A DNA stretch of 40,157 nucleotides from positions 1 to 40,157 of the forward strand of contig JAJRXM010000025.1 of NCBI GenBank assembly GCA_024276275.1, given 5' to 3'. The stretch comes from Candidatus Zixiibacteriota bacterium (GTDB lineage Bacteria; Zixibacteria; MSB-5A5; GN15; FEB-12). The translations under genes and the position numbers were made by a program. This document shows, piece after piece, positions 77 through 1,200 of the stretch. Position 1 is the stretch's first letter, and each line of letters begins with the position of its first letter. The notes under the pieces were generated by a model. It was not told the DNA's origin. It searched no databases and saw only the letters and a list, made by a program, of their open reading frames with translations.

Positions 77-511
77 TTAATATGCTTTTATGAGGTTGAT
101 AATGTCCTCGAAATTTCCCATTCCTCGTTCAGCATACATTATTTTACCGTCAGTATCTATAGCATAGACAGTCCTCAGCACACCTTTACCCTCAGGCTTT
201 TGGCTTTTATACTTCACCAGCACTTTTTCACCCGGGTCTGACAATATTGGAAAATTAAAGCCTTTTTTTGAGCAGTAATTTTGATGCGAGGTTATCGAGG
301 CAGAGTTTATCCCTAATACAACAGTATTTAATTTTTCAAATTTTATCCTCTGCTCTTCCAGAGCAGCAAGTTGGCGATTTCAGCCGGGGGTACTGTTTTT
401 TGGATAAAATACAAGAACAGCAAAACGGCCTTTTAAATCATCTGCAGAAAACATACCGCCCTCTGATGATTCCAATTTAAAGACCGGAGCTTTATTACCT
501 ATTTTTATCAT
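77..511 (-). CDS. Selenocysteine-containing BCP-type peroxiredoxin (UGA read as Sec)
   Basis: The minus-strand frame gives a 144-residue thioredoxin-fold peroxiredoxin if one in-frame TGA (380-382, codon 44) is read through. That codon falls exactly at the peroxidatic position: the protein reads FYPKNSTPG-U-NRQL, where the BCP/PrxQ family has TPGC. After the TGA the frame stays open and family-like (SDPGEKV, GVLRTVYAIDTDGKI) to a TAA at 77-79. A hairpin 20 nt after the TGA fits the bacterial SECIS layout. ATG 511 has AAAGGA 8-9 nt upstream. It is the last gene of a run with thiol peroxiredoxin, rubredoxin and ferritin-like protein, so it should reduce peroxides. There is no Cys five residues after U; the only later Cys is in HQNYCSKK. 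Selenoprotein peroxiredoxins are known. No selA, selB, selD or tRNA-Sec lies in this window, so decoding is inferred. Confidence 0.86.
350..366 (-). promoter_or_regulatory. Putative bacterial SECIS hairpin
   Basis: On the minus strand, CTGCTCT-GGA-AGAGCAG forms a perfect 7-bp stem with a GGA apical loop (or 6 bp with loop TGGAA). The loop begins 21 nt after the TGA of the peroxiredoxin. Bacterial SECIS elements lie inside the coding region just after UGA, with a small apical loop that starts with G about 16-37 nt downstream. This one matches. Confidence 0.75.
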
Positions 512-560: not shown

Positions 561-1043
561 TTACAGAATCGCAAGTTCTTTGAAAAGTTTCTCATTATCG
601 GGAAGGAGTTTATAATCCAGATAATCTATAAACTGAATTACTCCGTTTTTATCTATAAGAAAAACAGTACGGTCGGCATATCCTCTTTTATTTAATATGC
701 CGTATTTTGACGCTACTTCTCCATGTGGATAATAGTCAGACATAAGCGGGAAAAAGACCCCTCCGAAAGATTTTGCCCAGGCAATATGACATGCTACAGA
801 ATCAACCGAAATACCAAACAGCTTACAATCATACTTTGTAAATTCATCTATAAAATTATTATATGCGGGAATTTGACTAGAACAGACCGGAGTAAAATCT
901 CCAGGATAAAAAGCAAGCACAACATTTTTCCGACCCTGATACCAACCAAGATTGAGCTCTCCCTCGTTGTGGGTCTCAAGCGTAAAATCAGGAGCCTTGT
1001 CTCCTACTTTTAACTTCCTTTTAGTATTTTGCTGATCAGTCAA
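561..1043 (-). CDS. Thiol peroxiredoxin (AhpC/TSA family)
   Basis: A 160-residue cytoplasmic peroxiredoxin that reduces hydrogen peroxide or organic peroxides through a cysteine sulfenate cycle. The active-site loop FYPGDFTPVCSSQIP carries the peroxidatic Cys54. Downstream are the expected SVDS segment and the strand with TVFLIDKNGVIQF. The length is normal for AhpE/BCP-like members. The frame opens with TTG (1041-1043); no ATG lies upstream of the conserved core, so a TTG start is likely. It begins 4 nt after the rubredoxin stop and is followed after 49 nt by the selenocysteine peroxiredoxin. Tight spacing and shared strand suggest one oxidative-stress operon, with the rubredoxin as a possible electron donor (inference). 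Confidence 0.93.
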   Translation of the reverse strand: MTDQQNTKRKLKVGDKAPDFTLETHNEGELNLGWYQGRKNVVLAFYPGDFTPVCSSQIPAYNNFIDEFTKYDCKLFGISVDSVACHIAWAKSFGGVFFPLMSDYYPHGEVASKYGILNKRGYADRTVFLIDKNGVIQFIDYLDYKLLPDNEKLFKELAIL

Positions 1044-1047
1044 AATT

Positions 1048-1164
1048 TTATTTCTCTTCTTTATACACTATAAACCTAGACCTTGGTGCTGAACAAAGTG
1101 GACAAATTTCAGGTGCTTCGCCATCATCGTGTACATACCCACAAATCTCACATACCCATTGCAT
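1048..1164 (-). CDS. Rubredoxin-like small iron protein (38 aa)
   Basis: A 38-residue ORF encodes MQWVCEICGYVH, then EICPLCSAP: two CxxC knuckles (C5/C8 and C21/C24) with the WVCxxCGY signature of the rubredoxin domain found at the C-terminus of rubrerythrins. It should bind one Fe(SCys)4 centre and carry electrons. GAGGAG ends 6 nt before ATG 1164, which favours that start over the ATG two codons upstream (1170). It sits between the ferritin-like protein (36-nt gap) and the peroxiredoxin (4-nt gap). Rubrerythrin is often one polypeptide with diiron and rubredoxin parts; here the two parts are adjacent separate genes. It is short enough to be missed by length cut-offs. Confidence 0.87.
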   Translation of the reverse strand: MQWVCEICGYVHDDGEAPEICPLCSAPRSRFIVYKEEK

Positions 1165-1200
1165 ATTCATCTCCTCACTTAGACAATAATCCTAAAAAGT

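Follow-up and report, generated by a model that had tools for sequence, protein, structure and literature searches.

The window, by which we mean the whole 40,157-nucleotide stretch of DNA that was analyzed, comes from a Candidatus Zixibacteria-type MAG and almost certainly contains a selenoprotein gene on the minus strand of positions 511 to 77. SelB-dependent insertion would place selenocysteine (Sec) at codon 44 of its product, a predicted peroxidase of the BCP/PrxQ-type peroxiredoxins. Translation of this strand gave one 144-aa frame that runs from ATG to TAA, with a TGA at 382-380 as its sole interruption. When the TGA is read as Sec, the protein is MIKIGNKAPVFKLESSEGGMFSADDLKGRFAVLVFYPKNSTPG-U-NRQLAALEE..., and the active site around the TGA is NSTPG-U-NRQL. 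The original prediction had described a hidden selenoprotein of the BCP type, and the conserved TGA, the machinery genes and the covarying hairpin described below indicate that this description is very probably right. Its account of the coding sequence also stood, in that the single in-frame TGA aligned with the peroxidatic Cys of BCP/PrxQ structures and the rest of the protein was intact, with an AhpC-TSA domain match. As it had further anticipated, table-11 ORF calling recovered only two sense-strand fragments, of 43 aa and 55 aa, together with a 70-aa antisense ORF at 268-480 (+). In a phylum that has been little studied, standard annotation would split the gene into two fragments and so miss it in 15 genomes or more.

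Features of the selenocysteine peroxiredoxin locus (positions are those of the window)
Feature	Position	Strand	Basis or remark
Sec-containing BCP/PrxQ-like peroxiredoxin gene	77..511	-	144 residues; frame, PF00578 match, structure alignment
Codon 44, a TGA in frame at the peroxidatic position (TPG-U), read as Sec	380..382	-	Same codon in 15/15 clade members
bSECIS-type hairpin within the coding sequence	347..370	-	Fold, bSECIS rules, covariation
Cys80 codon	272..274	-	Aligned with Cys84, the second Cys of Xanthomonas BCP/PrxQ
Second peroxiredoxin, AhpC/Prx6-like, with Cys here (FTPVC)	561..1043	-	Upstream, co-oriented
Small rubredoxin-like protein, RUBY_RBDX	1048..1170	-	Same strand, possible operon member
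Rubrerythrin-like protein, PF02915	1201..1701	-	Same strand, possible operon member

Profile searches matched the protein to AhpC-TSA (PF00578, 3e-32) and also to Redoxin. With its AhpC/TSA domain and the active site PKNSTPGU, it fits the PxxxT(S)xxC/U pattern of TxxU/C-type peroxiredoxins. The best relatives of solved structure by sequence were BCP/PrxQ proteins, and BCP/AhpC peroxiredoxins ranked first when an AlphaFold model (pLDDT 95) was compared with the PDB by Foldseek. Residue 44 aligned with residue 48 of Xanthomonas PrxQ and Cys80 with its second Cys, residue 84, at equal spacing; in the Xanthomonas protein, Cys48 is the peroxidatic Cys and Cys84 the second one. Cys80 is a likely candidate for the resolving Cys in this genus, and it is replaced in the relatives G008, G032, G017, G012 and G009. 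The best NCBIfam model was thioredoxin-dependent thiol peroxidase, at 67 bits against a cut-off of 140, and the protein reached no curated BCP or PrxQ cut-off in NCBIfam, so we describe it as BCP-like rather than as a canonical BCP. In a phylogenetic tree, the Sec clade, with the sequence L053 nested inside it, was split from ordinary Cys PrxQ proteins and AhpC-like partners with support of 99/96. L053, from a MAG labeled as a cyanobacterium, was the only Cys-containing member of the clade that we saw.

A search of 132 genomes of the phylum found the gene in 15, this genome included, whereas an earlier search of relatives had given 12. Exactly one TGA was present in all 15 clade members, always at the same codon, and the site in the relatives was TGA rather than TGY; no Cys version of the clade was found among the 132 genomes. 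Among the 15 genomes are relatives from within the genus, the family and the order; in all, many genera in two families are represented, and the relatives' proteins are 42-73% identical to that of the window. The pN/pS values after the TGA (0.19-0.46) and before it (0.29-0.50) were much alike, and purifying selection, as estimated from these ratios, is acting both before and after the TGA. Two incomplete loci were also observed. At the end of a contig of a KSB1 MAG (L056:3019-3153), a truncated gene containing NNTPGUNRQL seems to encode this Sec peroxiredoxin in a genome from outside Zixibacteria. The genome G037 has a BCP-like gene (L049:2029-2376) from which some 25 residues surrounding the Sec site are missing without loss of the frame (..DSAF|RLAALE..), where a natural loss and an assembly deletion are both candidate explanations.

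Published bSECIS rules specify a loop of 3-9 nt with a G within its first two positions, a stem of 4-16 bp, a distance of 16-37 nt from the UGA and an energy of at most -7.5 (quoted in PMC13188914). The original prediction of a 7-bp hairpin with a GGA loop at the right distance from the TGA was borne out. Nucleotides 366-360 pair with 356-350 (-) to form a 7-bp upper stem, beneath which there is a 3-bp lower extension, and the GGA loop at 359-357 (-) begins 20 nt after the TGA. With an energy of -10.7 kcal/mol for 366-350 (-), the 3-nt loop, the stem and the distance all lie within the bSECIS constraints. As a single fold the hairpin was unexceptional (z = -1.4), since equally good folds arose in 18 of 200 shuffles; a synonymous-codon null gave p = 0.03 for this gene alone. 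We therefore did not take its folding energy as proof and relied on covariation instead. Seven orthologues carry the GGA loop in one register, and 95.9% of their stem cells were paired compared with 81% in shuffles, although this percentage leans in favor of the hairpin because the seven were picked for their common register. More telling are the compensatory double changes at three stem pairs, for example UA, CG, AU and GC at columns 18-32, and the covariation score of 0.49 for the seven, where slid registers scored no higher than 0.11. When all 15 sequences were forced into one register, 67.6% of cells were paired, and the covariation signal was weakened by shifts of the hairpin in several of them: the stem is displaced by one or two bases in G040, G049 and G012, and in the same register the hairpin is weak or unrecognizable in G032, G017 and G075-G077. 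Local hairpins were also stronger after the TGA than after the Cys codons of homologues (p = 3e-7), in a comparison whose rows are related rather than independent and whose encoded peptides differ. The case beyond chance thus comes from the TGA conserved in 15 members of the phylum and the covariation in seven.

If the gene is expressed as a selenoprotein, the genome should encode the machinery for Sec, and a search for selA, selB, selD and tRNA-Sec found all four. The tRNA-Sec is at C3:46591 (63.7 bits) and was confirmed by ARAGORN with the anticodon tca. On the same contig, selA (1e-153) adjoins selB (1.7e-98) at C3:58071 and C3:59429. The sole selD of the genome, at C34:28860, is a Sec-type gene too (SCAG-U-ASK). 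The claim that the organism makes Sec accordingly stood as far as the presence of these genes is concerned, but it is qualified by an in-frame TAA at codon 199 of the assembled selD (L018:2065-2067, G000:C34), where relatives of the same genus have Glu or Thr. Counting this genome, 48 of 61 closely related genomes had a tRNA-Sec that scored above the cut-off, and Zixibacteria appear as selenocysteine users. The formate dehydrogenase homologues and the other AhpC/TSA genes of this genome contained no TGA, and the window held no second convincing read-through gene.

Three other explanations of the TGA were weighed. In a pseudogene, or through a sequencing error, it would be a Cys codon turned into a stop, either truly or only in the assembled sequence. 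TGA is indeed one base away from both Cys codons, and MAG assemblies do contain errors, the unexplained TAA in selD being a case in this genome. However, such a change would have to recur as TGA at one codon in all 15 genomes, across many genera in two families, with selection on both sides of it and with no Cys version found in the 132 genomes of the phylum. We consider this explanation very unlikely, and the conserved TGA led us to rule it out. Even less credible is a genome-wide reassignment in which TGA encodes, for example, Trp, Gly or Cys. TGA terminates only one of the 33 window ORFs that were counted (TAA 26, TAG 6), as reassignment would allow, but rare TGA stops are expected in an AT-rich genome that prefers TAA. 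Moreover, tRNA-Sec, selA, selB and selD are present, relatives of the same genus and of the same family use TGA as the stop of these very genes, and reading TGA through rescued no other gene of the window, in which there were also no conserved genes with an in-frame TGA outside active sites. Reassignment was rejected on the stops of the relatives and the absence of any other rescue in the window.

The remaining explanation accepts the Sec peroxiredoxin of the lineage as genuine and places the defect in this strain only, where a broken selD would cause translation to end after 43 residues. A real TAA could leave the strain unable to produce selenophosphate from its only selD, and none of 16 other genomes searched had an extra stop in selD. 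Nevertheless, the remainder of the gene shows no damage and has about 82% identity with a sibling's, selA, selB and tRNA-Sec look intact, and a single-base assembly error in the MAG is at least as likely as a real break. A strain-specific loss is therefore improbable, albeit less so than the two explanations above, and we favor a selenoprotein gene with probable Sec insertion in this genome.

We propose that SelB carrying Sec-tRNA-Sec would recognize the hairpin just 3′ of the UGA, resulting in insertion of Sec at codon 44. The subsequent steps follow the known chemistry of the peroxiredoxin family. Sec44 would attack H2O2 or organic hydroperoxides and be converted to a selenenic acid, which in this genus would probably be resolved by Cys80 to give a selenenylsulfide, for which thioredoxin or a comparable protein would serve as the reductant. 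Relatives without Cys80 would be one-Sec enzymes in which an external thiol resolves the selenenic acid.

The Sec peroxiredoxin gene sits 49 bp behind the gene for the second peroxiredoxin, and the two are probably co-transcribed. The rubredoxin-like and rubrerythrin-like genes are perhaps part of the same transcript, as a peroxide-defense operon. This tandem of peroxiredoxins was present at 11 of the 15 loci and absent only from genus g30. In four other Zixibacteria (G040, G049, G039 and G045), the peroxidatic codon of the partner is itself a TGA (WTPV-U; loci L029:2036-2428, L030:963-1376, L042:1504-1920 and L043:1501-1917). G040 and G049 have this TGA together with a Sec BCP, and G039 and G045 have it with no match to the Sec BCP. 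Sec is confined to the BCP-like member in family f1, occurs in both members in two f2 genomes and is found only in the AhpC-like member in two f4 genomes, and a tree of the BCP-like and partner proteins requires four changes between Sec and Cys. One tentative reading is that the tandem is a functional pair between whose members selenium use moves in evolution, forming a lineage-specific Sec peroxide-defense module. With their natural series of Sec/Cys exchanges, the two adjoining peroxiredoxins offer a way to study the benefit of selenium at a peroxidatic position.

Selenoproteome surveys have described Sec peroxiredoxins with TxxU, as COG1225 in the Sargasso Sea (43 sequences; PMC1088965) and as PF00578 in GOS (253 sequences; PMC2398784), and the family is included in a current list of prokaryotic selenoproteins (PMC13188914). 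Neighboring selenoprotein genes that include Prx, namely Prx/SelW and Prx/Prx-like, were also seen in GOS (PMC2398784). The TxxU family has therefore been known since at least 2005, which makes the find less surprising, and the window gene adds another example of it. The literature that we searched contained neither a previous description of this gene nor one of a Sec peroxiredoxin from Zixibacteria. The new detail is the tandem with a second peroxiredoxin that has Cys here and TGA in four other Zixibacteria.

Two other kinds of Sec-containing peroxiredoxin were also compared with the window protein. PrxU of Eubacterium acidaminophilum (NF040737), which has been studied at the bench, likewise has a peroxidatic Sec in an AhpC/TSA-domain protein, but it represents a longer AhpC-type family of which the window protein, scoring 43 bits where the cut-off is 270, is not a member. 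The Prx-SUH thiol peroxidase (NF045827) is also a Sec-containing member of the peroxiredoxin superfamily, but the window protein scored only 19 bits where 298 are required. The Cys BCP/PrxQ proteins, such as Xanthomonas campestris PrxQ (5iox/3gkk) and the Burkholderia protein (5enu), share the fold, the peroxidatic position and the spacing of the second Cys with the window protein, whereas they differ in having Cys in place of Sec, in an identity of only about 27-32% and in the sequence that follows the active site (TPGCTTE versus TPGUNRQLAALEE). By their published descriptions, the Sec peroxiredoxins of COG1225, which is the Bcp group, and of PF00578 resemble the window gene in the Pfam domain, the peroxidatic Sec, the TxxU motif and a bSECIS-type hairpin within the coding sequence, while the window gene differs in belonging to another phylum and in its tandem arrangement with a second peroxiredoxin.
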